Part shown: piece by piece, positions 1-24,100 of the stretch
Numbering within the stretch: position 1 is the first letter of the stretch
Layout: each line of letters opens with the position of its first letter
Source: Paracyclopina nana
Lineage: Eukaryota; Arthropoda; Copepoda; Cyclopoida; Cyclopettidae
Direction: 5' to 3'
Assembly (NCBI GenBank): GCA_019096065.1
Contig: JAGUCH010000001.1
Location: 4,774,001-4,838,000 of the forward strand
DNA: 64,000 bases
Position numbers and translations under genes: made by a program
Notes under the pieces: model-generated
Told to the model about the DNA's origin: nothing
Database searches by the model: none
What the model saw: the letters and a program-made list of their open reading frames with translations, nothing else

Positions 1-43
1 CACCTCAGCCGGTCTAGATCGGTCAGTCATTCCTGGAACGCCC

Positions 44-3000
44 ATGCCCGCGGGCTCACGGACGAATGCTGAGCCGTTAGACTCCGGAGCCATGCTCCCC
101 CCTGGGAGGTCGTTGTATCGGACCCCACCAGGGCAATCTGGCTTTCTTGTGCCACCCTACCCACCGCCAAGCGGTGGAGCAGCCGGATTTTCGAATAATC
201 CCCCACATTCGACTCCTGCTACCATTGGGATGCATGCTGCAACGAATCAGCCACCACCGGACGGCCCACCGGACGCTACCGGCGGCGATTCGACCCTGAG
301 ACCAAACGTTGGAGGAACGGCCATGCCGTCTTCTCAGGAGGAAGATGCTCGCTCTACGTCCTCTGTTGGAATTCGATCTCGCTCCCACAGCCTCGCTGAA
401 GGCACCAAGAGGCGAGCTACTGGAGCCAAGAAGAAGGGCACTGCTACTTCTGGCGGAGGAGAATATCAACCCAAAGGCACAAAAACCAGGCCCAACTCCG
501 CCAAAAGGACCCCAAGACAACTTGAGGACATGAGGACAGCCGAAGTTGATGCTATGAAGCACACTGAGTCACTGCAGCAATTGTTTGACCTCACCAAACC
601 ATTCATCAAGCGTCATCGGGCTGCTTTCCTGGAAAAAACCGAGCAAGTCTCAAAAGCTCAGGCAAATGAGGTGAAACAACATCTTAAGTATTATCTCAAA
701 GAGTTCGATAGGCTGCAAGGACTTTATGACTCTGCTGTCGCTGGAGCACAGCTTCAGGCTTCTAGGGAGCTGAAGGCGGAATTTGGGAAGTGCTACAGCC
801 AGTGCCAGGCACTGCTCTACGCTGCTGACGAGTTTCTTCGCGTGCTCGCATCTGGACAAAGGCCGCGAGGTCAGCCGCATGGCGGAGCAGCCTCTGGACA
901 AAATCCTCCGGTCTCCAAGTCTCGGTCAACTGAACTATTGCCATCTGACTCCGACGCAAGCGCCATGGGCGAGTTGGCTCGTGTCGAGGTCAACGAGGCC
1001 ACTGGAGGTTGCCGAGTGGCCATGCCAACTGGTGATATCTATGATTTGACAGCTGAAGAAGTCGCTCAGCAAGGAACGGCAGACTGGCTCAACCGACAAC
1101 TGCAGGTGAGGGCCGGAACCTTGATCCCACCTGTCTCAGCTGCCGCGGCTCCCGCAAATCTCAATGTTGACGGCATTTCGCCACGCGAAGCGCCCATCGG
1201 GGTAATTGGCACGTCAACTGCAAACGTCAATGTCGGCACAAATGCAGCTGTCAATGCAGCAGCCACAAACTCACCCATCACTGCCAATACTGCGAATCTC
1301 ATCACCCTTGGGGTGAACTATGGATCGGCTGTCACCTTTTTGAGAAGCACTCTCACCGAAGTACTCGAAGATCTCGAAGAAGGGCCCACTGGAACGGCCT
1401 GGACCCAGATGCAGCACCTGTTATCCACAGCCGAGAGTCAGTTTAGCAAGGCAAGAGATGATCTCCTTGCTGGTGGAGGTGAAGTGTCTGAAAGAGATCG
1501 ACAACTGCAGACCAGAACCGAGAGAGCTTTGGAGGACATTAATGTGGGAATTCGACGAAGCTACGAAGATGGCACTCTGATTCCTCCTCCAGGTTACGTC
1601 TCCAGCACCTCGGTGAGTAATACTCTACCCCATCAGGCCATGCCTGTCACCACCTCTGTGCCCCCGCCAAATTTGAACGAGCCCCCACCGTTCTTGGGCC
1701 AACCTCTAGGGCAAAAAAGGGGACAAGTGGTCAACAATGTTTATCAGCGCAATGCGCATCAGCCCCCTCCTCTTCAATCCCACTCCACGGCCCCGCCCCC
1801 ACAGCGGGACTACACTCGTGACCTGCCATGGATGCAATCAAGTGGAGGCTCAGGACCAGGCCAAGTCCAAGGAGAGCAAAGAAGAGTGGGTAGCGGCACT
1901 CAAGTGACCCATGCGCATGGCGCACCCATCTTATCCGGATCGACCGCAAGTGGAGGACTGCACCGGCCTCAAGACTTGCCACCATCACTAGATTCTTGGC
2001 GTCGAGTCAATCCTGGAGCAAGCTTTCAGTATCCCGGAATCTCACGCCCAGTTGGCAATCAAGTGGTCCATCCTCAGGTTCACGGTCAAGGACCTGCCAT
2101 GCAGGGATCCTCAACAAATCCGGGCTGGAACCAAAATTATCCAACCCCATTTGTGCCTCCTCCACGGGCCCCAGGCTGGAATCATCAACAACCCTCTGGT
2201 GGTAATCCTAACCATGGATTCGTGCCACAAGTTCGTCATTCAGGACCTTCTTACATTCCACCCGCGGCTCCGCAACCGCAGCCACCACATGATGTTCCTC
2301 AGCTGGCCAATGTGCCCGGGTTTGGCACCTATATGGCTCCGCACCTTTACCAGAACTTGGTCGTCAACCACCCTAGCCTCGCAGCTCGCTTTGGAGCCAA
2401 GCTACCTGCTGTCAACCTCGCTAAGTTCACAGGTGAAGACATTTCCACATTTGTGACTTTTAGGGATCAGTTTAGAGCCTTGGTTCATGAGAACCCCGCC
2501 AGTTCCTGGCCTGAAAAGTTCAACAGGCTCATGGATCTCACCCGAGGAGGCCCAGCAGGAGACTTCGTGGCTAGCCAGCCTCAAACCGAAGAAAGTTACC
2601 TGATGTGCCTTGAAGTTCTTCAAAATGATTACGGATGCCCTAAGCTACAGATGGATTGTCTCATCCAGAAGATGACCAACATGACTCCATTGGATTATCT
2701 GAGCTCCACCAGTGTCATGGCAGCCAAGCTGCTGGTCGCCAACATCTACCGCCATGTCAGAAGTCATTGGGGTCACCCAAGTCTGAATGTGCCCATGGAT
2801 TTGCATGACTCCTACATATTCAGGACCCTGCCAATGACACTCGCCACGCGAGATGACATCGACCGCTATCTGAGTTCTAGAGGAGATGGCGCACTTACCT
2901 ATATGACGAGTGAATTGTTCGACCAGTGGTGCAACCGGAGACTCAGCATCCTCAGGTCTCACTCCATTGCCAACCCTGCCATCCAGCCTGCCAGACCTCG

Positions 3001-6000
3001 CGCCAAAGCTGCTGTGAATCAGTTCGAGACTTATTCTCCATATCCACAGCATCTCCAGACCGAACCTGTGCACCATTTCCAAGTGTCCTGCCATGCAGAC
3101 GACAATGAGGATCTTCCACCCAAAGACGAAGAAACTGAGGAGGAGGTTATAATTCCGCAATGCGGAGGTGAGTCATTTGTTGTTCTTACCGTTACCAAAA
3201 CCGATCAAAAGTATTTTACGAAATGTCCGGAATGCGGTTCTGCTGAACATCGATTTTATAATTGTCCGAGTATTCTGGCTATGACTCCGCGTGGCCAAGC
3301 CGTGAAGTGTTTCAAGTTCAAAGCCTGTCTGCGATGCATGGCTGGAATGCACACCACCAAGGAGTGCATTCGAAACTGGAAATGCGATAAGTGTCAGTCA
3401 GAAAGTCACCACACCCGGTTGCATGGAGCTTGGGATCACAAGGACAAACCTGATGCCAATGAACCTTCCACGCCCTCGCCACCTCCACGGGGGGACTCTG
3501 GTGGCAATGCCACGGCGAGTCTGGAAAAAGCTGTCTCTTCATTGACCCAGGTCATACAGCAATCCGGACTAGCTGCCCGGACCAGCAATGCTGGAGACCA
3601 AACCATCGATCCCCTGAAGGAAGAACTCGGAGCTCCCAAGAACAATGGAGCTAACTTCATGCATTTCACCTCTCTGCCCCTGAATCGACCCAATGATGAA
3701 CAGAGCCAGTTCCTTTCTGATGACGATGAAGATGATGTGGCCAACACTGATTCCCCTCCTGGTAGCATTGCTGACAGTGAAACTTTCCGCGAAGAAGTAG
3801 CAGGACCACTTACTCGTCAACACGATCTGAGTCTGCTGGCTAGTGACCCTGCCATCCTCGAGGCCAGACTGTCCACCAGAGGCTGCTCGCCAGTTCCTGG
3901 GACGTCGCTAGCAGTCGAGCCTCCCTCCACCATGAGAGTCACATCCGATGGTCGATCAGTGGTGCAAGCGCATGGCGCATCACCCAAACATGAAGGACGG
4001 AGAGATCTACTCAGTTTCTGTGTGGTGCCCATTTTGGTCGCCAATCCTAAGCGGCCTGACACCTACATCAAAGTGAATGCCTTCCTGGATACTGGTGCTC
4101 AGCTCTCCATGATCTCAGCTTCACTTTCGAAAAAGTTGGACCTGGACGGAGTTTCCGATGATCAAGTCCTGAAAATGATCGCCACCACCGTCAACGTCAT
4201 CAGCGATGCTGTGACTCTACGCGTCAAACCCCTGACGGGGGGACCACATCAGGATCTCTCACTCCACACTATTCATGATCTACCATCTTCTGTATCGGTG
4301 CCTCCGCTTGAACGACTGAAAAAGAAATTTGAGTATTTGAAGCACCTGAATCTCCCAACCTATGCGTCACCACCCTGCCCAGACCTGCTCATTGGTATCG
4401 ATTATTACAATCTCATTTTGCCGGATAAGATTGTCCACAAAAAAGAGGGCGAGCCATACGTCTACGATTGTCCTCTCGGTCGTGTCGTGACGTATTACAC
4501 CCCTGAGCAAGTCAAGATGGCCTCCCATTATGGGGTAATGATGGGAACCGTGGGATTGCCTCGTTCTGATCAGGAACATCCGGATGAACCACCCTCGCAG
4601 CCACCGCAATGCGGCAACTGCTTTGGACGAGATATCCCTCCTCCTTCTGAGTTGCTGAAAGCACTCTGGGAGGCTGATTTTCCCACCAACAAACTCTCAC
4701 CTAGAGCCATGCTCAGCATCAATGACAAGCGAGCTCTTGACATCCTCACTCAAACCATCAGCCAACTTGACAACAAGGATTATCAGATGAGTCCAATGTG
4801 GGCAGAATACGAACCCAACTTCACTTGTAACCGCCTTGCGGTTCTTCGATCCACCGCCGCTGTGGAGCGGAGGCTTCGATTATTTGATCTGCCAACTTAT
4901 GAGAAGGCCACTCAAGAGCTCAAAGATTGGCTTGAGTTGGGCTTCATTCGCGAATTGGACCCCGAGATCGACGACATCAATGACTGCTATTACTTGGACT
5001 GGCTGCTGGTCGAGCGACGCGACAAGCCTTCAATGCCAGTTCGGGTGGTCTTCGATGGCTCAAGGAAACACAATGGGAAGAGTCTCAATGATGCCCTCTT
5101 ACCTGGACCGAAGCTACAGAAAGACGTTTTTGACATCCTTGTTGGAGCTCGTGAAAAACCCATCATCATCGTCACTGATATCAGTAAGATGTTTTTGCGA
5201 TTTAAGCTCGACCCCGCTTCCCGAAAATTTCATCGCTTTGTTTGGAACGGCGTGCATTACGAAGCTAATTCTGTGGTCTTCGGCACGACCAGCGCACCTT
5301 GCATGGCAAGTTTTGCGGTGAAGCACCACATCTCAAAATATCAGGAATCACATCCCTTGGGATTCAAGGTCCTTGACACTGCGCTCTATGTTGACGACGT
5401 TTTTGCCTCGGTGGAGAACATTGCCGAAGGAAAAGAAACTGTCAGGCAAATCATGGAACTTGGGGAGTTGGGAAATATGCCATTTCGAAAATGGGGCAGC
5501 AATGCTGCTCCAGTTCTCGAAGACGTCAATGAGGACTTGAGATTGCCTGGTTTCGCGGTCTCCTCTGAAAATGCTGATACGACGAAAGCGCTCGGCATGT
5601 ACATCGATTGCGAAGGCGATCAAATCGTGTATCAGCCACCAAACACTGAGTTCATGCGCAATGCGCCAGTGACACTTCGTCTTATGTGCCAGTTCGTGCC
5701 AAGGCTCTTTGACCCTCTGGGATTAATGGCACCTCTCATCATCAGAGGCAGACTTCTCATTCAACGCGTCAATGTTCTTCGCACCCTATATAGCATCGAC
5801 TGGGACACAGCCCTGGAAATGCTGGACTCAAGAGAAATCGACCTCATTCTACAAGACTGGCATCAATATGTCAAGGAAGTCGATCAAGTCGAACTTGTTC
5901 GCATTCCTCGCGCCATGCGCTCTCGACCGGCTGCACACATCTCGCTGCACATTTTCTCCGATGCGAGCGAGGTCGCAAAAGGAGCCTGTGCATATGTTCG

Positions 6001-8347
6001 TGTCTTGTACGAAGATGGAGTGTATGATTGCACTCTGCTTGCCTCTCGAATGAAGGTAGCTTCCATCTCTTCCACCCGATCGATGCCCGAAATGGAATTG
6101 GAAGGTTGCGTTATTGGAGCTGAACTCTGCGAAGATCTGGTCAATGTACTAGGTCGACTGGATGAGGTGCATTTGTGGACTGATTCACAGTGCACTCTCA
6201 CATGGATCAGTAAACCATCCACTCTATGGAAAAAGTGGGTTGGACGCCGTGTCACTGCTATTGTGGAGAAAACAATCAACCACCGATGGCATCACGTTCC
6301 AGGGAAGATGAATCCTGCGGATTTAGTTTCACGTGGACTCAGCATTGCTGAGTTGGCAGATTCAGACCTATGGATCCATGGACCCAGGTTTCTGAGGGGA
6401 CCGGAAAACAAGTTCCCCAAATGGGTCCCCAATGTCACCGATGACGAACGAGCTGCCTTGGAAAGATACGAGCGAACTGGAGAAGGGGGAAGAAAAGCCA
6501 GGAAAGTCAAGCTTAAAGAACTTCTCGTGGCTCAATTCACAAGAATGGGAGGTTATCAAGTCCCTGAACATCTGCGTGCTTCCGCCGAGACTCGAGCAAA
6601 ATGGCATTACATGAGGTACACGACCTGCCACGTTGACTTGCCTAAGCTAAATTCATGGGAGCGAGCTGTGCGAGCTCTGTGCTATGCACGGAGATGGGCC
6701 CTGATGATTCGATATTGCTCTGACGCTGTCACCCAAGACGACATCACCCCCGAAGAATATGCCTTCGCAGAAAATAGCATTGCTATTTGGCTGCAACAAA
6801 AAGAATATGCTCGTGAGCTTGATTATTTCTTTGTCCACAACATGTGGCCCAGGGGAAGTCGATTGGCAAAGATCGATCCAGTGCTATACTCGCAAGGCGA
6901 GCTACGCACAAAAGGACGCCTGGATTCCACTCCAGTTCAGTGGATCGGACGCCGTCAGCTCATAATTCCAGGTGAAGGTCGGAGGCTGGTTCTCGAGGAT
7001 TTTCATCGAAAATTGGGGCATGGCCTCGGCAGGCTTAGGTATTTGAGCGAGGCTCAACTTAAGTTTTGCATTCCCGGTGGTAAGCGCATTATGACTGATA
7101 TATTAAATAGCTGCGCGATGTGTGCCAGGCACAAACTCGTGGCATTGCCACCCCACATGGGACAGCTTCCACCCCACGCAGTTCCTCTGACTGAATTTTT
7201 GCCTTTTCGCTACACATCATTCGATATGTGCGGCCCCTTCATCACCAACTTCAACCGCAGCGAGTACAAGATGTATGTGATCATTTTTATTTGCATGCAC
7301 TCGAAAGCAATTCATTGCGAAGAGGTCTATGATATGACCTCTGCCTCCTTGATGAGGGCTCTGGAGATGTTTGTCGCAAGAAGAGGCTGTCCACACACCC
7401 TGAGGAGCGACAATGGAAGCAATTTCATTGGTGTCCGAGAAGACATTCGAGTCAACCCACAGTACAAGGAGATGCTCGAAAAACTACAAGTGGTCAACTG
7501 GGATGAGTTGCGACAGTTTGCCGGCAAAATTGGCGTTGTCAATTGGACGCTTTCACCGCCTTTCTCCCCGAACTTCAATGGTTTATCGGAGGCCGCTGTC
7601 AAGATATTCAAGAAAGCCTTGTATCGCCAGTTTGGGGGGACCACTGTCACCAACCTGGAGGACTTCAGATATTGTGTCATCAAGTCCGAGGGCTTTATTA
7701 ACGGAAGGCCAATTGGAGAGCTTGAGGGACATTTCCTCACTCCCAATCATTTTCTGACCCGTGGACCTCCAGGCGATGTTGTACCCGTGATAGATCCAGA
7801 AGCTCTTACTTCCCTTGAAAAAAGGTATCACCTTATTGAATCTGCATTGCAGGCACTTTGGGAATATTGGTCTCGAGAGCTAGTTGAACACATCCGAAAA
7901 ATGCCAATTTGGCAACATCATCGCAAGACTCTGTCGCATGGCGACGTGGTAGCCGTGCTGGAGAGGCCTCAGTTCCATCGCAGGTACTGCTGGCCACTTG
8001 GCATCATTCACAAGGCCATTCGTGACCAAGATGGCGAGTGCCGAAGAGCAATCGTAAAAATGGTCCCCACTGGAGAAAATGAGCCCGTGTATTATGAAAA
8101 ATCTACTCGTTATCTCATCCCGCTGAATGTGTTCAAGGACTCGGATGAATTCATGGTCTACAATAAGGCCGGAGAAGATGACGAGCAACCAAACCTCGAA
8201 CACCTGCGTCTTCAACATGACCTGGAAGATTCAAGGCCAGAGCTCGGACGGTATTATCAAAACCTTACAATGTTCTCAAGAAAAGGCGAAGAAGACTGCC
8301 CATTGCCAATTACCTCCAATCGCACCGTGAGGAAAGGGCAACTGTAA
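44..8347 (+). CDS. BEL/Pao Gag-Pol polyprotein
   Basis: Polyprotein of 2,767 residues from the first ATG; the frame is open to base 2, so the true start may lie outside. Order: Pro/Gln-rich N-terminus with a charged, coiled-coil-like stretch (about 165-270); DUF1759-type Gag region (about 765-900); three zinc knuckles (1,061-1,127), two CX2CX4HX4C and one CX2CX4HX4H; aspartic protease with DTGA at 1,349; reverse transcriptase with YVDD at 1,782-1,785; Pao A17 linker; RNase H with FSDAS near 1,973 and TDSQ near 2,047; integrase HHCC zinc region (about 2,320-2,360); integrase core with D2394, D2456 and E2516; DUF5641-type C-terminus (about 2,620-2,710). It makes particles, cDNA and integrates it. 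All catalytic residues I looked for are present, so it is probably intact. Family assignment is firm; exact domain borders are by eye. Confidence 0.95.
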   Translation: MPAGSRTNAEPLDSGAMLPPGRSLYRTPPGQSGFLVPPYPPPSGGAAGFSNNPPHSTPATIGMHAATNQPPPDGPPDATGGDSTLRPNVGGTAMPSSQEEDARSTSSVGIRSRSHSLAEGTKRRATGAKKKGTATSGGGEYQPKGTKTRPNSAKRTPRQLEDMRTAEVDAMKHTESLQQLFDLTKPFIKRHRAAFLEKTEQVSKAQANEVKQHLKYYLKEFDRLQGLYDSAVAGAQLQASRELKAEFGKCYSQCQALLYAADEFLRVLASGQRPRGQPHGGAASGQNPPVSKSRSTELLPSDSDASAMGELARVEVNEATGGCRVAMPTGDIYDLTAEEVAQQGTADWLNRQLQVRAGTLIPPVSAAAAPANLNVDGISPREAPIGVIGTSTANVNVGTNAAVNAAATNSPITANTANLITLGVNYGSAVTFLRSTLTEVLEDLEEGPTGTAWTQMQHLLSTAESQFSKARDDLLAGGGEVSERDRQLQTRTERALEDINVGIRRSYEDGTLIPPPGYVSSTSVSNTLPHQAMPVTTSVPPPNLNEPPPFLGQPLGQKRGQVVNNVYQRNAHQPPPLQSHSTAPPPQRDYTRDLPWMQSSGGSGPGQVQGEQRRVGSGTQVTHAHGAPILSGSTASGGLHRPQDLPPSLDSWRRVNPGASFQYPGISRPVGNQVVHPQVHGQGPAMQGSSTNPGWNQNYPTPFVPPPRAPGWNHQQPSGGNPNHGFVPQVRHSGPSYIPPAAPQPQPPHDVPQLANVPGFGTYMAPHLYQNLVVNHPSLAARFGAKLPAVNLAKFTGEDISTFVTFRDQFRALVHENPASSWPEKFNRLMDLTRGGPAGDFVASQPQTEESYLMCLEVLQNDYGCPKLQMDCLIQKMTNMTPLDYLSSTSVMAAKLLVANIYRHVRSHWGHPSLNVPMDLHDSYIFRTLPMTLATRDDIDRYLSSRGDGALTYMTSELFDQWCNRRLSILRSHSIANPAIQPARPRAKAAVNQFETYSPYPQHLQTEPVHHFQVSCHADDNEDLPPKDEETEEEVIIPQCGGESFVVLTVTKTDQKYFTKCPECGSAEHRFYNCPSILAMTPRGQAVKCFKFKACLRCMAGMHTTKECIRNWKCDKCQSESHHTRLHGAWDHKDKPDANEPSTPSPPPRGDSGGNATASLEKAVSSLTQVIQQSGLAARTSNAGDQTIDPLKEELGAPKNNGANFMHFTSLPLNRPNDEQSQFLSDDDEDDVANTDSPPGSIADSETFREEVAGPLTRQHDLSLLASDPAILEARLSTRGCSPVPGTSLAVEPPSTMRVTSDGRSVVQAHGASPKHEGRRDLLSFCVVPILVANPKRPDTYIKVNAFLDTGAQLSMISASLSKKLDLDGVSDDQVLKMIATTVNVISDAVTLRVKPLTGGPHQDLSLHTIHDLPSSVSVPPLERLKKKFEYLKHLNLPTYASPPCPDLLIGIDYYNLILPDKIVHKKEGEPYVYDCPLGRVVTYYTPEQVKMASHYGVMMGTVGLPRSDQEHPDEPPSQPPQCGNCFGRDIPPPSELLKALWEADFPTNKLSPRAMLSINDKRALDILTQTISQLDNKDYQMSPMWAEYEPNFTCNRLAVLRSTAAVERRLRLFDLPTYEKATQELKDWLELGFIRELDPEIDDINDCYYLDWLLVERRDKPSMPVRVVFDGSRKHNGKSLNDALLPGPKLQKDVFDILVGAREKPIIIVTDISKMFLRFKLDPASRKFHRFVWNGVHYEANSVVFGTTSAPCMASFAVKHHISKYQESHPLGFKVLDTALYVDDVFASVENIAEGKETVRQIMELGELGNMPFRKWGSNAAPVLEDVNEDLRLPGFAVSSENADTTKALGMYIDCEGDQIVYQPPNTEFMRNAPVTLRLMCQFVPRLFDPLGLMAPLIIRGRLLIQRVNVLRTLYSIDWDTALEMLDSREIDLILQDWHQYVKEVDQVELVRIPRAMRSRPAAHISLHIFSDASEVAKGACAYVRVLYEDGVYDCTLLASRMKVASISSTRSMPEMELEGCVIGAELCEDLVNVLGRLDEVHLWTDSQCTLTWISKPSTLWKKWVGRRVTAIVEKTINHRWHHVPGKMNPADLVSRGLSIAELADSDLWIHGPRFLRGPENKFPKWVPNVTDDERAALERYERTGEGGRKARKVKLKELLVAQFTRMGGYQVPEHLRASAETRAKWHYMRYTTCHVDLPKLNSWERAVRALCYARRWALMIRYCSDAVTQDDITPEEYAFAENSIAIWLQQKEYARELDYFFVHNMWPRGSRLAKIDPVLYSQGELRTKGRLDSTPVQWIGRRQLIIPGEGRRLVLEDFHRKLGHGLGRLRYLSEAQLKFCIPGGKRIMTDILNSCAMCARHKLVALPPHMGQLPPHAVPLTEFLPFRYTSFDMCGPFITNFNRSEYKMYVIIFICMHSKAIHCEEVYDMTSASLMRALEMFVARRGCPHTLRSDNGSNFIGVREDIRVNPQYKEMLEKLQVVNWDELRQFAGKIGVVNWTLSPPFSPNFNGLSEAAVKIFKKALYRQFGGTTVTNLEDFRYCVIKSEGFINGRPIGELEGHFLTPNHFLTRGPPGDVVPVIDPEALTSLEKRYHLIESALQALWEYWSRELVEHIRKMPIWQHHRKTLSHGDVVAVLERPQFHRRYCWPLGIIHKAIRDQDGECRRAIVKMVPTGENEPVYYEKSTRYLIPLNVFKDSDEFMVYNKAGEDDEQPNLEHLRLQHDLEDSRPELGRYYQNLTMFSRKGEEDCPLPITSNRTVRKGQL

Positions 8348-8658
8348 CCATAAAGGTAGTGCCCCCCTTTTCTTTTCTACGCCATGCGTACTTTTTCAGC
8401 GCAACGCGCTATAAAATTCTAGTCATATCAAAATTTTCCGTCCTTACAAAAAATTATGCCCGCGCATTGCGCCCAAAAAGTTCTTATGATCTTGTCACTT
8501 ACGGAGGTTGCGTGATTTTAGACGAGAAATTGCGCAATGCGCTGCGGCTGACGCGCTTCGTAGCACGCTCGGCTCAACTAGTTTTCAGCTGATTTCCGTT
8601 TCCATTTCTCAACACATTTCGTCGGTAAAAACGTTTTTCTCGTCGAACTTAGTGCATC
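8348..8658 (+). other. Spacer between the two retrotransposon ORFs
   Basis: About 310 bases with no convincing ORF. It holds four of the element's palindromes in a short space: TACGC-CAT-GCGTA (8,378-8,390), AGCGC-AAC-GCGCT (8,398-8,410), GCGC-ATT-GCGC (8,462-8,472) and GCGC-AAT-GCGC (8,532-8,542). It could carry a subgenomic promoter, splice acceptor or translation re-initiation signal for the second ORF, but none is recognisable. Confidence 0.6.
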
Positions 8659-11600
8659 ATGAGTGAATTAGTTCAAAATATTCTTGACGAAACCGTGCAG
8701 GAGGCTTCGGAAATTGCCGAGCCTCCAATCCAACCAGTGCCCCCACCAAATGAGGAGCCGGAGGTCGCCCCCGGGCCTCAACCCAAAATAGATTTGTCTG
8801 ACTACGATGAGCTCATGGATATGGCCACCACCTCGACTAGCAGCCATGCTGCAACAGGTAATAATGAGTCTAGCCATGCTACTCACGCTGCCGCTGAAAA
8901 CCACGGGTCTACGGAAGAAGAAATGGAGGTGGAGGATGATCGCTCCTCCCAAGGTGCGTTTCGATCTCCGCCTGGTCAAATAGGAGGACCTCCAAGCCAA
9001 GCCCCCAGCGAGGCTCCCAGTGAATCCGGAGTCAGCCTGCTGGGATCGGTGGATGGAGACGAGGCCATCATCATTCACGTCAATGAATATGAGCATCTCC
9101 TGGCCGAGTCGCCACGACCTGGAGAAAAGCAAGACGTAGCCATGCTCGATCTTTCCACTGTGAAGAAGATGGGCTCCGCATCTGATCGAGTTCAACCTAT
9201 GGAGGTCGCCACGACATCTTCGCCCGAGGTCATGCCACCACCACCTCCTCGGCCTCGCACCCGAATCACGGGACCCGACGGCGGCGATGGAGCAAGAGGT
9301 GAGGCCAGCGGCCGCGACCGTCATAGGACCTCCAAACATGGCCGACACTCTTCAGCACCAACATCACGAAATTCAACCTATCTGAAAATAAAACGCCCAG
9401 GCTCTCGTAGCTCTAGCTCCTCCACCACGTCGAGGTCGAGCTCACGAGCCTCGGTTCAATCTCGACTGGGGAGAGCTCGGTCATCTCCATCACTGATGCG
9501 ACTTCCAGGGCTTAAGGAAGACCCGTTTGACCACGTTTTCAAAAGCAGCACTTATATGAATCATTCTCATGCGTCGGAAGAAGACTCTAACAACCTCTCA
9601 TCTCTGTTTTCAGGACTCAACTTGCCATGCAAGTATGTGGAGCGCCGAGCAATGCTTGCCTCTCACATACGAGTCCTCCTTGATGCTCTTCAAGTCTCTG
9701 AGGTCGTCTTCGAGGACGAGGCCGTGGACATGAAGGGGGATCTGCTGCTTCGCAAATACTGCGATCCAAATGTCGCGTTTCTAGGCCACTCCCTCACGTA
9801 TGGTCCACACTCACCGGATGAAGATCCACGCGATGAGGCCACCAGGGCCGCAGCCGCTGCCCGTGCTGCCCGACAGGACCACACCCGCATTGCGGCCCTC
9901 TCTCAACAAAGGCCGCCCCTGTATGTCATGGGAGTTTGCCACAGCTACGCCATGGACACCTACGACTCCTACGAACTGGACTGCCTCTTCTCCAACCCGA
10001 GGGTGACGCCATTGAAGAGAAGCCCACTCGAGGGCGCTGACCTCGAGGCTGCAAAGAGGGCCTGGACCGCCCGCAAGAACTTTGCGAAGATCTTGGTGCT
10101 TGGCACTTTCGGTGAGGCTCCACCCACTGAAGATCAATGCCTTCAGCAGGTCCTGGCGCTGGGGCCCTCTGCCGCCCCTCATGCTGTGCCGGAATGGCTG
10201 CAGAGATATTGGTGGCACTTCAACTGCAACCCAGCCATCGCCAACCTCGCCGACCCTTTCGACAAACCCAGCCAACTGGCCACCGCATTGCGGGACTCGG
10301 GGCTCATGACGCCCGCCGTCAGGCCTCCACCACCCTCGGCCTCAGCCTACGAGGCCCCACCTTGCCCTCGAGTCAGAGCATTGCTCGAAGACCGCGAGGA
10401 CACTTCTTGCAGCCTTCTTGAGTGCGTCCTTCGCCGCTTTGAAGAGGGCCCACTGGATGCCATCGTCAGGGGCAAGGACGGGGAGCTGTGCTACTCCACA
10501 TACTTCTTGGAGGAGCTGGAGAAGCACGTCAAGATGCAGGAAGGGCCGTTGGACTGTCGACTCAACACTGGCAAGAGGAATGTGGTCGTGCTGGAAAACG
10601 ACGAGCAATGGTTGGCCATCAAGGCCAAGCTCCTCAGGCTTGGCTACTTCAGGGAAGCGAAGTACTTCAACCTTGTCTCCAGTCATCTCTACAGCTGGAC
10701 CGTGAAGGCGTTGGAGAAGGCAAAGATGGCGCTCAATGGGAAGCCAACAGAGGGCTGTTTTACAGTCCTGGCGGTTGGCAGCCTCAGCACCTTGCTCATA
10801 ATCCAGAGCAATTATGGAGGAGAAGGTGGAAATGGCGTGTTCAAGGGAGCAAAGATTCCCAAGGAAGTCGTCGAACTCCTCGAATCACCCGCCATGCGGG
10901 TGGCTGGATTCAACATCGACCAAGAAAAGAGGTACACCAACCTCGGCATCGACATCAGGGCCCGCTGCGACGTCAACACCATCAGCCTGCTCCTTTTTCC
11001 TCAGGCAGGAGTCAGGGCCGCGGAGATGAAGTCAAATGTGACTTATGTGGCTGAAAGGCTCAACACCGAAGGAGTTCCCGTGCAGAAGAGTGCCAAGCGT
11101 GTGAGCGACAAGCACGTCAACCCCCAAGGCCACCAAATCAGGTTCGAATACCAACGGGAAGAGGATGATCTCAGTCTTCCAACCAAGTCGTGGACAGCCA
11201 AACAACAGATGTATGTGTGGATGAACCACGCCCTCACCTTTGGGTCAATTCTTACCCTTGTGGGGCGTGGCCTAAAGCGTCATGGGTTTGGACCAAAATG
11301 TGACGCATTGCGTCACATTCATCTGGTCTTGGACAGGATTCGCAACCTCAAGACGTCGGGCCAGCTCAAGAAGACCGACGAGCACCTGAGGCCTTTCAAC
11401 AAGGTGGAGCCAAGTACCACCACCTCGCATGGCGAGGATGGTGTGTACGCTGAGTGGATGTGGCTGCTGGAAAGTGAATCTCCAGCCATCAACAGTGTCA
11501 GTGCCACCAGGAACTATTTTCGGAAGGGCAAGCCTTATGCGATTGACCTGCACCTTGTGTCGAAGGATTTGGCCTTGGCGTTCATGTCGATAGTGAGGAA

Positions 11601-12075
11601 AGCCCCAGGGAAGCTCATGTGGAGCGACGTCCTTGACGTGATCTTCAAGGGTGGGCGCATTGCGCCGCATTTTTGCCGCCGATGTGGGTCCTTCGACCAT
11701 TTGAAGGACGCGTGTGACGCAGGACCAGTGTTCTGCATCAACCCGCAATGCGGATCGCCTCATCGCCACACCGTGTTTGTCTGCGACAACCTGACTGAGA
11801 GGTGCACCTACTGCCAAGAGCTGGGTCACCACTCCTCGCAGCACAAGCCCTCGCTCTCTGGTGGCAAGCCCTACCTCCAGATCCTGGAAGAGTCTGCCCT
11901 GTGCAGCATCCTCCACCTGGAGCTGTTCCGCCTCCACGAAGGTCTCGGCCTCCACCTCGCCCGACAAGAAGATCGCCTGGCTCTCGTCCCCTATAACAAG
12001 GTCATCCAAGAGAAGTCCTCCACCCGTTATGTCTTGGAGGACCGATGTGTGGCCTTTACGACCTCATGGCCTTGA
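8659..12075 (+). CDS. Second retrotransposon ORF with exonuclease-like fold and zinc knuckles
   Basis: Protein of 1,138 residues in the position where some BEL or gypsy elements carry env. No signal peptide or membrane segment is visible, so it is not an envelope. Residues 1-300 are low complexity: acidic/Pro-rich, then Ser/Arg-rich. Residues about 641-870 resemble a DnaQ-like 3'-5' exonuclease: a start like NVVVLENDEQWLAIKAKLL, a strand plus LLIIQ at about 702-715, an exo-II-like GFNIDQEKRYTNLGI (about 750) and an exo-III-like KSWTAKQQMYVWMNHA (about 844-858). The acidic catalytic residues appear replaced, so activity is doubtful. Residues 1,004-1,067 hold CX2CX4HX4C, a longer Cys/His group and CX2CX4HX4H, paralleling the Gag knuckles of the first ORF. 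The start is the first ATG after a long stop-rich spacer. The exonuclease relation is an inference; nucleic-acid binding through the knuckles is more secure. Confidence 0.75.
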   Translation: MSELVQNILDETVQEASEIAEPPIQPVPPPNEEPEVAPGPQPKIDLSDYDELMDMATTSTSSHAATGNNESSHATHAAAENHGSTEEEMEVEDDRSSQGAFRSPPGQIGGPPSQAPSEAPSESGVSLLGSVDGDEAIIIHVNEYEHLLAESPRPGEKQDVAMLDLSTVKKMGSASDRVQPMEVATTSSPEVMPPPPPRPRTRITGPDGGDGARGEASGRDRHRTSKHGRHSSAPTSRNSTYLKIKRPGSRSSSSSTTSRSSSRASVQSRLGRARSSPSLMRLPGLKEDPFDHVFKSSTYMNHSHASEEDSNNLSSLFSGLNLPCKYVERRAMLASHIRVLLDALQVSEVVFEDEAVDMKGDLLLRKYCDPNVAFLGHSLTYGPHSPDEDPRDEATRAAAAARAARQDHTRIAALSQQRPPLYVMGVCHSYAMDTYDSYELDCLFSNPRVTPLKRSPLEGADLEAAKRAWTARKNFAKILVLGTFGEAPPTEDQCLQQVLALGPSAAPHAVPEWLQRYWWHFNCNPAIANLADPFDKPSQLATALRDSGLMTPAVRPPPPSASAYEAPPCPRVRALLEDREDTSCSLLECVLRRFEEGPLDAIVRGKDGELCYSTYFLEELEKHVKMQEGPLDCRLNTGKRNVVVLENDEQWLAIKAKLLRLGYFREAKYFNLVSSHLYSWTVKALEKAKMALNGKPTEGCFTVLAVGSLSTLLIIQSNYGGEGGNGVFKGAKIPKEVVELLESPAMRVAGFNIDQEKRYTNLGIDIRARCDVNTISLLLFPQAGVRAAEMKSNVTYVAERLNTEGVPVQKSAKRVSDKHVNPQGHQIRFEYQREEDDLSLPTKSWTAKQQMYVWMNHALTFGSILTLVGRGLKRHGFGPKCDALRHIHLVLDRIRNLKTSGQLKKTDEHLRPFNKVEPSTTTSHGEDGVYAEWMWLLESESPAINSVSATRNYFRKGKPYAIDLHLVSKDLALAFMSIVRKAPGKLMWSDVLDVIFKGGRIAPHFCRRCGSFDHLKDACDAGPVFCINPQCGSPHRHTVFVCDNLTERCTYCQELGHHSSQHKPSLSGGKPYLQILEESALCSILHLELFRLHEGLGLHLARQEDRLALVPYNKVIQEKSSTRYVLEDRCVAFTTSWP

Positions 12076-12106
12076 GGCCATTTCGTGTTCGGCCTCCACG
12101 GTCTCC

Positions 12107-12115
12107 AAGGGGGGA
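12107..12115 (+). promoter_or_regulatory. Polypurine tract of the first element
   Basis: AAGGGGGGA, preceded by CTCC and followed by CAGC and then the LTR start TGTTGTG at 12,120. This is the expected plus-strand priming site next to a 3' LTR. The same nine bases recur at 14,180-14,188. Confidence 0.75.
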
Positions 12116-12119
12116 CAGC

Positions 12120-12870
12120 TGTTGTGTTCCGCCTGGCAGCGCTGCGCATTGCGCACGCGCGCGCACCCACAAAAAAGGACGCCAAGTCTGCTGTTTTCCG
12201 CCATTGTAAGAATTGTCAGTTACTGCAAAAACCCCAACAAGAATAGAACCTAATTTGAATCTCTGCCATATTTACTTGTCTCTGCTATTTTATTCCATAT
12301 TGTGTGCTTTATCTCTCTTTTATTTCAGTGTACTACTTATTTTTGATGTTATTAAGTCCTTGAGAAGCTTGCTTTTTGAGGATTGAGGCTATTTATTTGG
12401 TCTCTCATATATTGTCATTTTGTGCTTGGATTTTGTGGCAAGTCATACTTGTCCTTGGATTTGCTTGAGCATTGCTCAGACATCCATATGTTGCTTGTCT
12501 TCTGGTTTGGATCATCCTCTGGATTTTGATCACCATTGGGCTTTGTCTTTTTCCCTGATTTTGAGGTTTACTTAGCATTGCTAAGATCCATCGCATCGCG
12601 ATCCCCACCAACATTTTTGAGGGCAACTTTCCAGGAGATTGCGGGCCACGACAGGCAAGTCATACTTGTCCTTGGATTTGCTTGAGCATTGCTCAGACAT
12701 CCATATGTTGCTTGTCTTCTGGTTTGGATCATCCTCTGGATTTTGATCACCATTGGGCTTTGTCTTTTTCCCTGATTTTGAGGTTTACTTAGCATTGCTA
12801 AGATCCATCGCATCGCGATCCCCACCAACATTTTTGAGGGCAACTTTCCAGGAGATTGCGGGCCACGACA
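12120..12870 (+). repeat. LTR (TGTTGTG...CACGACA) with duplicated 3' part
   Basis: It begins after the polypurine tract with TGTTGTG and ends in CCACGACA three bases before a primer binding site, so both borders look like LTR borders. The last 217 bases are present twice in tandem: a simple LTR would be 12,120-12,653 (534 bp), and with the duplication it is 751 bp. Its terminal bases are near-inverted (TGTTGTG against CACGACA). I cannot compare it with the other LTR of the same element because that lies outside the window. Confidence 0.65.
12437..12870 (+). repeat. Perfect 217-bp tandem duplication
   Basis: Copy one is 12,437-12,653 and copy two 12,654-12,870; I see no difference between them. 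Each contains three of the element's palindromes: TGAGC-ATT-GCTCA, CTTAGC-ATT-GCTAAG and ATCGC-ATC-GCGAT. Lack of divergence means a recent duplication or ongoing homogenisation. Small open frames on the minus strand here are by-products of the repeat. Confidence 0.95.
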
Positions 12871-12873
12871 ACT

Positions 12874-12891
12874 TGGCGCCCAACGTGGGGC
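12874..12891 (+). promoter_or_regulatory. Retroviral-type primer binding site, tRNA-Lys type
   Basis: The 18 bases from TGGCGCCC to GTGGGGC are complementary to the 3' end of lysine tRNAs ending in ...CCCACGTTGGGCGCCA, the primer class used by foamy viruses among others. It sits three bases after the end of the preceding LTR, exactly where a minus-strand primer site belongs. Hence 12,120-12,870 also acts, or once acted, as a 5' LTR for the DNA to its right. Confidence 0.75.
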
Positions 12892-12989
12892 TCTGAACCC
12901 ACCCCCTGGAACCCTATTGTTGGACCCCTCTCGTGCTCAAAAATGAGAATTCAAGATGGAGGACCTCAGGCCGGTTTTCAGCCTTTGTC

Positions 12990-13640
12990 CCCAACCTGCC
13001 ACATCTGGCAGTTGTCTCCTGCACCCGGAAGCATCTGCCGCACCCGGCAGCGTCTGCTACTCCTGGTAGCCTCTGCTGCACCCGGCAGCGTCTGCTGTAC
13101 CCAGCAGGGTCAGCTGCACCCGGCAGCGACGCCTCCCGCACCTGCCAGCGATGTCTCCCGCACCCTGCAGCGACGTCTTCCGCACCTGGCGGCGATGTCT
13201 TCCGCACCCTGCAGTGATGTCTCCCGCACCTGGCGGCGACTCCCGCACCTGGCAACTGACTCCCGCATCTCGGAGCGTCTCTCGCTCCCGGCAGCAACGT
13301 CTCCCGCACCTGGCAGCGACAACTCCCGCGCCTGGGGGCAACTCCCGCACCTGAGGGCAACTTTGGCACCTGGCAGCGACGTCTCACGCACCTGGCAGTG
13401 ACGTCTCACGCACCCGGCAGCAATGTCTCGGGCACCCGGTAGCGATGTCTTCTGCACCTGGCAGCGACGTCTCGGGCACCCGGCAGTGATGTCTTACGCA
13501 CCAGGCGGCGATGTCTCCTGCAGCCTGCAGTGATGTCTCCCGCACCTGGCGGTGACTCCCGCACCCGGCAACTGACTCCCGCATCTCGGAGCGTCTCCTG
13601 CACTGCTAGCGATGTCTCCCGCACCTCGCAGCATATCGTG
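12990..13640 (+). repeat. 22-bp degenerate minisatellite
   Basis: Many copies of a unit close to CGCACCTGGCAGCGACGTCTCC, with variants in CCTG/CCCG, GGCAG/GGCGG and GACG/GATG and some units shortened to 19 bp or extended. It begins as looser CACCCGGCAGCGTCTGC-like units and becomes more regular after about 13,130. Open frames on both strands are a consequence of the repeat and I do not call them genes. Confidence 0.9.
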
Positions 13641-13680
13641 CACCATGCTGCGTTTGCCGCTCACTGCAGCAGTTTGCCTG

Positions 13681-14188: not shown

Positions 14189-14191
14189 CTC

Positions 14192-14425
14192 TGTTATGGT
14201 CTGGTCGACCCTAGCACAGTATATAAGTTTGGTCTACCCTAGTCTCTCAATGCTGAAACTTCAGCTCAGCTCAGCCACATCACCCGATTTCTAGTCAGTG
14301 TACCCTGAGATTTACAATGAATTAAACACGTGTTTCTTTACCCACGAGTAGTGGACCCATTTTCATATACATTAACCTTGTCATTTTACCGTAATTTCAC
14401 CATGTTGGCTACGCTGGCCATAACA
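14192..14425 (+). repeat. 234-bp LTR with TGTTATGG/CCATAACA ends
   Basis: It starts TGTTATGG after a polypurine tract and ends CCATAACA, a perfect 8-bp inverted terminal repeat of the TG...CA type. It contains a TATA-like GTATATAAG near 14,217 and an AATTAAA polyadenylation-like signal near 14,320. No second copy exists in the window, and it is unrelated in sequence to the LTR at 12,120. Confidence 0.7.
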
Positions 14426-21100: not shown

Positions 21101-24100
21101 TGCTGTAGGTTGTCGCGATGGTTTTTCGATATTTCCTACTAGTTGGGCAAAGTTGTGTTGCCATAGGTATTTGTTTTCAAACATATGTAGTATACATGCT
21201 TTCTCTAATGCAGCTGGTGGCGAGTGCTATATAGTTTCTGTGATAATGCTAAGTTATTTAATAATGGACTAATGCACATTAGCTTGAAGTACTGCGGCGA
21301 GCACCTTGATTGCAGCGAGAAAAGTCCTACATGATTTAATTTTATGCGCTTGTGTTGATGTTGTGTGTTATAAGAGATGCTGACAATACTGCTACGCACA
21401 CTAAGTCAATTTGTCATCATCCATCACTCGGATTCCGTACTTGTAGAGAGCACCCATCTATACTGGAGAATGACTGTATGCTTCATTGCCAAATAAAACT
21501 CAGGCTTTCTTGCTCCTCTGTTGCTGTCGTGAATTTTTTTTCCTCCAAGCAACAGCTTTTTTGGGGACGGTCAGGTCGTGGACTCGTTGTTAAAAAGTTG
21601 TGTTTTCGACGATAGCCCAATTAGTAGACAAGCTGTTATAGTAGTGTGCGTTATAGGAGCAGATGGAGTCATCGACTTTCTCTGGAAGTTAACAAGGTCA
21701 CTCTGAGAGGAGCACTTGATGCATCTCTCAGGCAAAATAGTATCGTGCTTGCTTTTATTCACAAGAATGAATCATTTCATGGCTTAGCTTTTTTAATGCT
21801 TTTTATACAATTTGTCTTTATGAGCCATGCTAAATTGCAAGCTGCTGAGGCGAAAGACATAAACCATTTTCATGGGCCTAACTACAGCGTTTACTTATAC
21901 TACCCGTTGCGTTCTTTAGAATACATATGATGAATGATGGTACCTAAAATTCCTCTGTTTCTTTATTGCAGGCAAACAGCGCCGGGGCTCGCAATCACTA
22001 CGAGCAGTCCATTTAGGTCCAACACTCTGCAGGCTGCCCCAACTATGAAGGGGTCTTTTTATGACCCCAAGAACGATTTGATAGTGTCTTACAAATCAAA
22101 GCCAAATGGGGGAGTGTCTGTGTTCTACACCGCTCCCAAGTCCAATAATAGGGATTTTATCAATAGGTAGTTGCTCATTACCTAATGGAAGAAGGAGTGC
22201 ATCTGTAATTTTCTTTTTTGTACTTAAGGATAAAAGATCTCATCCAAAGGGAACAAGCCAAGTTGGCGCAAAACATCCAATTAAGAGAAGAAGAAGTAGC
22301 AACCACCACTCCAACTCCTTCTGCTCACTCTATAGATTATGACTACAAGGATGACTACTACTACTATGATGATGACGACGACGAAAAGAGAGGCCCAGTT
22401 CACAAAATTATGCGGGGAGAAGCTGTCTCAGACCTCAATGTAAACACTGTCGACGAAGACTATGACCAGCAGTTCAATTACTACTCAGATGACGGCGAAG
22501 ATCCTGAGCACATGAAATTTCTCGAAGAACAGCCGCCCTCGTTTCAAACTTTTGCGTCGGCACCCATCGTCGACAAACCAGTCAAACACGTGTTCTCAGA
22601 AGACTACTATTACTACGACGGAGAAGAGCCCAAGGTTACCACTGCCGCACCTGCACAGCAGTCTCCGTTTCGCGACTACGATTATGAATACTACAGCGAT
22701 GATGGTGGAAAGCCGAATAACCAGTTGAGCAGAAGAGCTCTGAACAAAGCTTTGAAGTCTTTGCTCACGCCAGCTGAAGAAGGTAAGCCAGCTAGAAGTA
22801 GAACTAACATATTAGCTGTAGATACTGACACTACCACTCCACCTCAATTCAAATCGAGTACCTTTTCCAAATCTTTTCTGCCTCTCTCACCGTCGACGCT
22901 ATTGTATTCGTTGCTGCCTCCGCCCCGAAAGTTTGTTGCCAGCCATCGCTTCCTTGAAGAGGAGGAAGAAGGAAGACAAAAGGGCGAGCACAAAGCCCTA
23001 AGAATGGGAAGAATGCCTCAAGAAGAAGCAGAGAGGGTCAGGCCCTGGTGGTCAAACCCTGCAATCTTGGGAGGCAAAGCTCGCATGAAGCAACAACTAC
23101 TCCCGTTCTCACCTGAAGAGAATATAGAGAAGAGGAACGACTACGAAGATAGTGAAGGAGATGTCCACCCACTTGAAATTCCTGTCACAGTTGCTCCCTG
23201 GGAATTTCTCCTTCAGGCAAGCCAAGGCCCGAGCAGCAGTACAGCCGACAAAAATAGAAGACTACTGCAGCAGCGGGCCTCATTTGGGATCAATGGCCCA
23301 GAAGTCATGATTGGAGCAGGGCCAAATTCCTCTGGACAAGTGGATGATTTGGTCATCAGAAGCACGTTGTCATCACTTTTGCTGCAGAATGAGAATTATG
23401 AACTTCGCGAGGCGTTTGCACCAAAGAGGCCGAAGAAAAGGAGGAAAAGGCCGTGGCTTAATGACCCGAGTGGGGTTTTGAGTGAGCACTTTGCGAAACC
23501 GCCACATTTGCTGGAGAGTCAAGTGTCTAAAAGGCTGGGAAAGGCCAGTGAGCCAGCTGTAAAGAAAGCAAGTCTCCTCCTCCCTAGGAGCCAAAAAAGA
23601 AGAAGGCGAAGGAAAAACAGAAGAAACTCGGTGCAGGGCGACGGGCCCCCCCAAAAGCAGCGCCTCAGATTTGGCATGAAAGAAGCCACAACGACTACCA
23701 CTGACAAGATAAAGAGCTTAATTAGGAATGTCTTTGAAGACCTTGATGAAATGGACACTCTAGCCGAGCCCAAAGAAACCTCGACAGCCGGCAATTTCGC
23801 GGAGGAGATGGTAGAAAGACCAGAAAGGATAACTATAGGATTTAATTTAACTCCCGACGCAGCAGATGTAGCAACTACGATACAGCCTCCCTTACACAAA
23901 CTGGAGAACACTGGGGCAACTTGGGCCCATCAGCAGCTAAGTAACACCGAGGCAGCGCGGGTGCGTCAGCAGCATAGTACAGTCAGGTCATGGCACCAAA
24001 AATTGCACCTAGCAAAACTGGCTGCTTGGATGAATGCCAAAGCGAAGATGGAGGCGGCCCACTTAGCTAAAAGTATAGTTGCTTTGGAGAGGAGGAATGC

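Follow-up and report, generated by a model that had tools for sequence, protein, structure and literature searches.

Short fixed words that recur at intervals through a genome, genes included, are familiar as genome tags, with HIP1 and the DNA uptake sequences as examples. In single-stranded RNA viruses and hepatitis B virus, dispersed RNA packaging signals have been described (Twarock, Stockley; PMC6281560; a second source is PMC7612645), which the available parts of those papers present as many stem-loops spread genome-wide with a common loop motif and varying stems. A further precedent comes from the VANDAL elements of Arabidopsis: the available part of PMC5735166 describes lineages of a single element family whose recognition motifs are not the same and have coevolved with an element protein, VANC. 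The subject of this report is an array in a BEL/Pao long terminal repeat (LTR) retrotransposon of the copepod Paracyclopina nana, lying in a window (the whole stretch of DNA analysed) of 64,000 nucleotides, positions 4,774,001 to 4,838,000 of the forward strand of contig JAGUCH010000001.1 (assembly GCA_019096065.1). Throughout this element, short hairpins with free but complementary arms surround a small set of three-base loops. These hairpins are shown statistically to be under selection, with a loop set that is fixed within a lineage and different between lineages, stems that change with their pairing kept, and sites that turn over.

Dispersed stem-loops with a common loop motif are an idea already known in RNA viruses, and in the BEL hairpins, too, pairing is kept by compensatory change. 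As far as the available text on the viral signals goes, the BEL hairpins are unlike them in belonging to an LTR retrotransposon, in having a strict triloop that is visible by eye and differs between sister lineages, in the strand symmetry of the AWT, GWC and CSG cores (standard base code), and in being known from sequence alone. Genome tags are fixed words, whereas only the centre is fixed here and the arms vary in a paired way. The VANC21 motif, in the part of the paper available, consists of nine bases of fixed duplex sequence that are repeated in tandem and lie mainly outside coding DNA, in contrast to the BEL hairpins, whose arms are free and of whose 48 cores in the window copy 40 lie in open reading frames (ORFs). 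Nothing similar to a triloop code that switches between lineages of LTR retrotransposons was found in the literature, as judged by titles and abstract openings with subscription journals sparsely covered, and there is a fair chance that the code is categorically new.

Paired cores in the window copy and its relatives

Four heptamers occur 48 times in positions 1 to 12,900 of the window (GCAATGC 10, GCATTGC 16, GCCATGC 14, GCATGGC 8), two of these being copies from a 217-bp tandem duplication, so that 46 remain. At least two further Watson-Crick pairs flank 43 of the 48 cores (90%), and the other five have none or one. Among 500 codon-preserving shuffles of the ORFs the mean number of cores was 8.7 and the maximum 16, against 40 observed, and for cores with at least two further pairs the figures were 0.91 and 4, against 35. 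The sites fall in all three reading frames of both ORFs (9/11/7 in ORF1, 6/4/3 in ORF2) and also in non-coding parts, with three in the 311 bp between the ORFs and five in the 795 bp at 12076-12870, giving a density of about one per 280 nt across both ORFs, their spacer and the LTR-like region. The remaining 51.1 kb of the window holds 12 cores, none of them with two further pairs. Nor was there an excess of hairpins in two host stretches (42 against 40.2 and 66 against 58.0) or in three Ty3/gypsy-type pieces, recognised by an RT_RNaseH_2 match (13, 6 and 11 against 17.0, 14.4 and 13.8 expected), and a host-wide or retroelement-wide property was rejected on these grounds.

The initial annotation had reported about 45 palindromes around the four cores, and these counts bear it out: all 25 of the hairpin coordinates that it listed are correct, its statement that coding does not explain cores in different frames agrees with the frame counts, and the host DNA to the right has cores only sporadically, as it said. 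Its figure of over 40 cores stands, and its claim that more than 90% are paired is slightly too high. Its chance expectation of about three underestimates bare cores, some of which are favoured by the encoded protein sequence (the shuffle mean is well over three), but the paired cores are far beyond chance. Selection for pairing, which it proposed together with codon-preserving shuffles and a search for compensatory change in other copies as checks, is upheld by both of these, by the lineage-wide change of core and, within limits, by an RNA-folding context test.

The extent of the selected unit can be read from how pairing falls off along the arms. Of 100 sites of clade A (the window copy and the L005 copy), 96, 89, 55 and 32 have a Watson-Crick match at pairs 1 to 4 outside the core, respectively, and pair 4 is close to the level of pairs 5 to 8 (21-37); the selected unit is therefore a stem of 4-5 bp with a loop of three. 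Counted without reference to the core, positions 1-12560 hold 110 four-pair stems with a triloop, 55 of them GC-closed, and the top loops are CAT (14), ATT (13), AAT (10) and ATG (7).

All the catalogued hairpins are given on the plus strand, which is also that of ORF1, ORF2 and the LTR-like region. Within ORF1 (2..8347), CAT loops stand at 86-98, 317-329, 1017-1027, 1634-1646, 2093-2105, 3088-3098, 4704-4714 (where homologous sites have AAT loops and re-paired arms) and 5910-5920 (AAT in clade B), and ATG loops at 875-885, 1912-1924, 3968-3978 (kept in L004 and L005), 5298-5310 and 7933-7945. AAT loops of the same ORF are found at 1747-1757, 3154-3166, 3501-3513, 3582-3594, 4604-4614, 5496-5508 (with compensatory arm change at homologous sites) and 5656-5666, and ATT loops at 6337-6353 and 6772-6788 (17 nt each, the latter with compensatory arm change in clade B), 7139-7151 and 7842-7852. 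The spacer between the ORFs has CAT at 8378-8390, ATT at 8462-8472 and AAT at 8532-8542. ORF2 (8659..12075) holds CAT at 8840-8852, 8871-8881, 9620-9634 and 10886-10902 (17 nt), ATT at 9885-9895, 10283-10293, 10376-10386, 11297-11319 and 11654-11666, ATG at 11423-11437 and AAT at 11743-11753; the hairpin at 11297-11319 is the longest, at 23 nt, and its central 17 nt are also present in a copy at C1:5.38 Mb. The LTR-like region has ATT at 12143-12155, 12466-12478 and 12571-12585, the last two being duplicated at 12683-12695 and 12788-12802.

Other copies were compared with the window element over a 4.2-kb region around the reverse transcriptase (RT). The cores persist in L004 (95% nucleotide identity, 15 cores), L005 (70%, 13 cores) and L006-L014 (56-64%, 12-17 each), and L015-L032 (47-56%) have 0-8. 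The paired GC-NNN-GC sites of clade A have the loops ATT (34), AAT (21), CAT (20) and ATG (13), and those of clade B (L008, L011-L014 and further pieces) ATT (64) and AAT (45), with only three CAT and ATG together; at homologous sites a CAT loop in clade A answers to AAT in clade B with the stem retained. Both arms differ between the clades at alignment columns 1809, 2611 and 4051. Six clade A and B elements, compared pairwise at the sites they share, gave 69 comparisons: in 17, all from these three columns, both bases of pair 2 had been replaced and still paired, in 1 both had been replaced and one element had lost the pairing, in 7 a single side had changed, and in 44 pair 2 was unchanged. 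Many sites are not common between elements, L008 and L012 for example having 12 and 15 sites of which only 3 are common, and sites therefore turn over.

Loop sets of other BEL lineages

The core of the initial annotation is one of several lineage-specific cores. The same architecture, a stem of at least 4 bp with a fixed triloop, recurs in most of the BEL lineages sampled from this genome, with the lineage loops AWT/CAT, AWT, CAN, CWG, GWC/GNY, CSG or CAA. Counted on stems of at least four pairs against codon-preserving shuffles of the RT region, CAG/CAT/CAA dominate in L015-L017, L019, L023, L025 and L030, CAG/CTG in L018, CAA in L021 and L024, GAC/GTC in L050, L051, L060 and L062, and GGC/GTC/GAC in L061; CGG and CCG appear in L055 (4 and 2) and, as weak counts, in L056 and L057 (two each), and CAG in L058 (8) and L059 (4). 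No dominant loop was seen in L029, L032, L052, L053 and L054, in the RT region and on stems of 4 and 5 bp, and no close relatives were confirmed among viral contigs. Stems are mostly 4-5 bp, but many CSG sites have 6-10 bp and a single CAN site has 12. In L055-L057 and L066, CGG/CCG sit in perfect odd palindromes whose arms reach 8-10 pairs, and the 12-pair hairpin, around CAT in L063, is far longer than the usual stems of its lineage.

A replication was provided by the ORF2 regions of seven of these elements, obtained once the RT region had yielded the loops. In all seven, the highest count, alone or in a tie, belonged to a loop of the expected set, where first-order shuffles gave an expectation of 0.1-0.4 per leading loop: CAG 11 and CAT 6 in L063, CAG 5 in L064 (with AAG, not expected, also 5), GAC 6 and GTC 4 in L065, CCG 3 and CGG 2 in L066, GCC and GGC 6 each in L067 (with GGT, not expected, also 6, and GTC outside the top six), CAG 4 and CTG 3 in L068, and CAA 6 in L069. 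In the lineage of L061 and L067, the loops GGC, GCC, GAC and GTC are joined by GGT, at 4 distinct sites against 1 for ACC, as though the sense strand tolerated G-U pairing between the two outer loop bases. When the loop types are mapped onto an RT tree of 33 elements, 10 changes suffice, and shuffled labels require 23.3; CWG does not form a single clade on this tree, for which the tool warns of long branches meeting.

The change of a loop with its stem retained can be followed in an alignment of L055-L059. Columns 596, 1157 and 2261 hold a site in 4, 5 and 4 of the five elements; L055-L057 have G or C at the centre there and L058-L059 have A, with arms that differ and pairing that is kept. A further 11 columns have a site in one to three elements, and at column 3993 a CAG site is common to L057, L058 and L059, an exception to the rule. 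With the three from clades A and B, compensatory stem changes are seen at six homologous sites in all.

These comparisons make it scarcely credible that the hairpins are a mutational or compositional by-product, whether from template switching that perfects chance hairpins or from coding bias. The raised chance count of bare cores in the shuffles speaks for such an origin, and nothing else does; each lineage has a fixed loop that shuffles seldom produce, related elements vary at the central base in a coordinated way, and the sites occupy all frames and the non-coding parts. Mutational perfection is disfavoured because of the loop specificity and the concerted change of the centre, and an artefact of coding or composition is ruled out by the codon-preserving shuffles.

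The diversity of loops also bears on whether the hairpins could be ligands of host RNA-binding proteins, for localisation, export or evasion of decay, with a different host factor for each lineage. Hairpins with free stems are a usual ligand of shape-reading proteins, and Roquin binds YRN triloops, which the CAN loops resemble. The clade D loops CAG, CAT and CAA fit YRN, as the loop of the CAA lineages does, but AWT, GWC and CSG do not, so that the array as a whole does not conform to Roquin-type constitutive decay elements. Moreover, several loops in one host would require equally many host readers, and neither the host part of the window nor the three Ty3/gypsy-type pieces have an excess, all of which leaves this explanation very improbable.

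Single strand or duplex

Dispersed single-strand hairpins, read by a protein that the element encodes for self-recognition such as packaging, are the explanation that we favour and that we hold about equally apt to prove right or wrong. The hairpins would fold in a single strand, the genomic RNA (or first-strand complementary DNA) being the likeliest, and an element-encoded protein would bind them, reading the triloop and needing a paired stem of any sequence; the zinc knuckles of Gag (ORF1) are one candidate reader, and the ORF2 protein, with its predicted DEDD exonuclease-like fold and three zinc knuckles, is another. The many copies may provide avidity and self-recognition, that is, selective packaging or protection of a lineage's own RNA among the at least ~100 co-resident BEL copies, and loop and reader would therefore diverge together. 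The initial annotation had left RNA hairpins with a three-base loop and dyad sites for a DNA-binding protein side by side; the evidence leans to the single strand, with a DNA-level site possible in the strand-symmetric lineages.

The strand tally leaves out near-copies and damaged or redundant pieces (L004, L006, L007, L009-L011, L013, L017, L020, L022, L023, L026-L028, L031, L042 and L043). Clade D (CAN) is nearly sense-only, since its CAG/CAT/CAA loops number 69 and their reverse complements 8; the ratio in the CAA clade is 14:0, which makes 83:8 for the two together. The CWG lineages lean to sense (11:5 and 12:5). Among the strand-symmetric cores, AAT and ATT number 22 and 30 in clade A and 42 and 52 in clade B, GAC and GTC 15 and 14, and CGG and CCG 9 each, CAT and ATG (21 and 11) being the least even reverse-complement pair.

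Such symmetry is what DNA-level sites would show, were an element-encoded protein to bind odd palindromes in element DNA (supercoiled or transiently unpaired), for example to counter silencing as VANC does through short motifs specific to each lineage. On that account the strand symmetry of AWT, GWC and CSG sits beside a centre whose class, W or S, resembles that of a base pair, with G-to-C flips at homologous sites of L055-57, and beside loop positions 1 and 3 that are complementary in AWT, CWG, GWC and CSG; G-U pairs are overall no better than A-C, and VANC proteins and their motifs coevolve, according to the available text of PMC5735166. The sense-strand preference of the CAN and CAA lineages nevertheless runs counter to it, as do the CAT, CAA and GGT loops, non-complementary at positions 1 and 3, and the folding-context effect; duplex reading has no need of arms that are free but complementary, and the VANC motifs, in the same text, are fixed-sequence tandem arrays in mainly non-coding DNA. 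We regard DNA-level sites as unlikely, though with some real claim.

The closure of several loop sets under reverse complement, in similar numbers (clades A and B, GWC and CSG), would also suit contacts between RNAs, in which triloops kiss (AAU-AUU, CAU-AUG, CGG-CCG, GAC-GUC) or palindromes pair two genomic RNAs, for compaction or dimerisation, and for which the switching of the centre as a class would count as well. Partner loops are scarce or absent in the CAN and CAA lineages (69:8 and 14:0), three bases make for a weak kiss, and dimerisation needs no fixed loop; RNA-RNA contacts are accordingly improbable as the explanation.

The folding-context test transplanted whole palindromes of every lineage except the CAA lineage into other flanks. 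The computed pairing probability of site hairpins was 0.580 in their own flanks and 0.471 after transplantation (n = 380, p = 5.5e-8, with related sites counted as independent), and hairpins with other loops, controls that were less stable on average, had no context effect (0.359 against 0.348, n = 508); both of these limits belong with the points that follow.

A number of observations weigh against hairpins read on a single strand by an element protein. The strand symmetry of AWT, GWC and CSG is not predicted by RNA recognition. Among single stem mismatches there is no preference for G-U, with 33 G-U against 28 A-C (301 and 320 in hairpins with other loops); by lineage the ratio is uneven, at 8:3 in A, 6:0 in CAA, 3:0 in L018 and 16:25 in the other six together, and an excess of G-U at pair 3 of clade D (11 against 2) was discarded, pair 3 not being enriched for Watson-Crick pairs there and the copies being related. 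The context effect is present on the antisense strand too (0.527 against 0.438), with no overall difference between the strands (p = 0.29; 0.0056 in B alone). It is missing from the GNY set (0.318 against 0.300), falls short of significance for sense-strand CSG and CWG sites, and was not seen in the CAA lineage in the version with 11-nt transplants, which is confounded by longer arms. At pair 1 of the sites common to A and B no compensatory change was found, 67 of 69 comparisons being unchanged. The hairpin total does not exceed the shuffles in L024 (18 against 17.9), L056 (16 against 16.1), L059 (18 against 16.4) and L062 (20 against 16.5), where only the loop stands out, with small counts. 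Elements with no dominant loop in the RT region can have ORF2 as well, matches to it lying ~6.4 kb downstream, on the same strand, of L029 (C2:11674565) and L032 (C2:10656483). With both sides considered, single-strand hairpins are more likely than duplex DNA sites, and the strand-symmetric cores, set against their nearly sense-only relatives, are a puzzle in themselves.

The element, its second protein and a proposed loop code

The element enters the window with ORF1, a BEL/Pao Gag-Pol frame that is open at the left window edge. Pfam profiles place Peptidase_A17 (E 5e-32), DUF5641 and DUF1758 over the curated cut-off, RVT_1 at it, and rve, Integrase_H2C2, DUF1759 and Asp_protease_2 below it, and a pattern match finds three zinc knuckles at residues 1075, 1109 and 1128 of the in-window part. 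Gag, aspartic protease, RT, Peptidase_A17, integrase and DUF5641 are thus all in one ORF, as befits a member of BEL/Pao. In the genome searched (92 Mb, 10 contigs), an RT search gave at least 101 matches and a search with 417 amino acids of ORF2 at least 106, several of the latter being fragments of a single copy.

The ends of this copy are not those that the initial annotation supposed. The sequence at 12121-12870 that it called an LTR is indeed of the family's own LTR type, since similar sequence is found at both ends of two other copies, and contains the perfect tandem duplication (12437-12653 and 12654-12870) that doubles two hairpins; it is, however, internal here, and the bounding repeats are different. 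These are identical 235-bp repeats, at 14191-14425 and, just left of the window, at L041:1411-1645, flanked by a 4-bp target duplication, CTGC, as judged by eye. A sequence resembling a primer-binding site (PBS), called by eye without tRNA comparison, adjoins the left repeat at L041:1649, and a PBS-like word also stands at window 12874, after the internal LTR, followed by leader-like repeats. The window copy looks like a chimera that inserted recently. Downstream of the PBS-like word, ~12990-13650 of the window carries tandem repeats rich in CACC-GGCAGCG-like units, and at L041 ~1200-1350, immediately left of the 5' LTR, a fold-back (inverted) repeat was noted by eye, possibly a small DNA transposon.

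ORF2 encodes 1138 amino acids that include the putative hairpin reader's features. Structure modelling of a fragment, residues ~302-600, points to a DEDD exonuclease-like fold, and three C-terminal zinc knuckles were recognised by pattern match. Pfam yielded nothing for ORF2 at E 0.001; the ORF2 alignment gave at best a weak zf-CCHC (E 0.025) in Pfam and weak zinc-knuckle matches only against PDB sequences (best 7c42_A, E 0.0049). Motif I, the one motif checked, was placed by eye from the model's strand 360-366 and not by residue-level superposition; at that position none of 11 aligned sequences has D-x-E, the residues being SSH, TSH, SCH, TCH, AAA, SLA, SVH or SIH, and ORF2 would thus apparently lack the acidic residues of motif I. 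The nearest parallel lies in bdelloid LTR retrotransposons, whose ORF3 is likewise an extra frame related to DEDD exonucleases (DEDDy-like), and whose authors mention the inactive RNA-binding relatives Maelstrom and EXD1 (PMC5408684). In the available part of that paper, the invariant residues persist in the bdelloid ORFs, where DEDD has become DEED, whereas ORF2 belongs to BEL/Pao, seems in 11 of 11 sequences to lack the acidic residues of motif I, and has three zinc knuckles and accompanying hairpins.

Farther to the right, the window holds a 1199-amino-acid low-complexity ORF (22218-25817) with acidic and Tyr/Asp-rich runs and no Pfam match, which was tried as a relative of ORF2 and gave no significant match. 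A run of long open frames on the minus strand at 47487-60555, with G8 and CEMIP beta-helix domains at 50537-51448 and 52937-53611, is probably a host gene.

As a more general proposal, which we offer tentatively and think somewhat less apt to hold than to fail, the BEL lineages would label their own nucleic acid by a loop code of about forty free-stem hairpins, with a triloop set for each lineage that is rewritten element-wide as the element-encoded reader changes. The triloop of such a code would have a centre of class W or S and an outer pair A-T, C-G or G-C, or else be CAN. If true, the loop code would be a system of self/non-self recognition, read perhaps as duplex in some lineages and as single strand in others. 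Little is understood of how the protein of a retroelement selects its own RNA when about a hundred relatives share the genome. Here is a candidate cis signal that is visible by eye, repeated about forty times in one copy and provided with natural loop variants along a tree, so that the specificity and coevolution of packaging-like recognition become directly testable.

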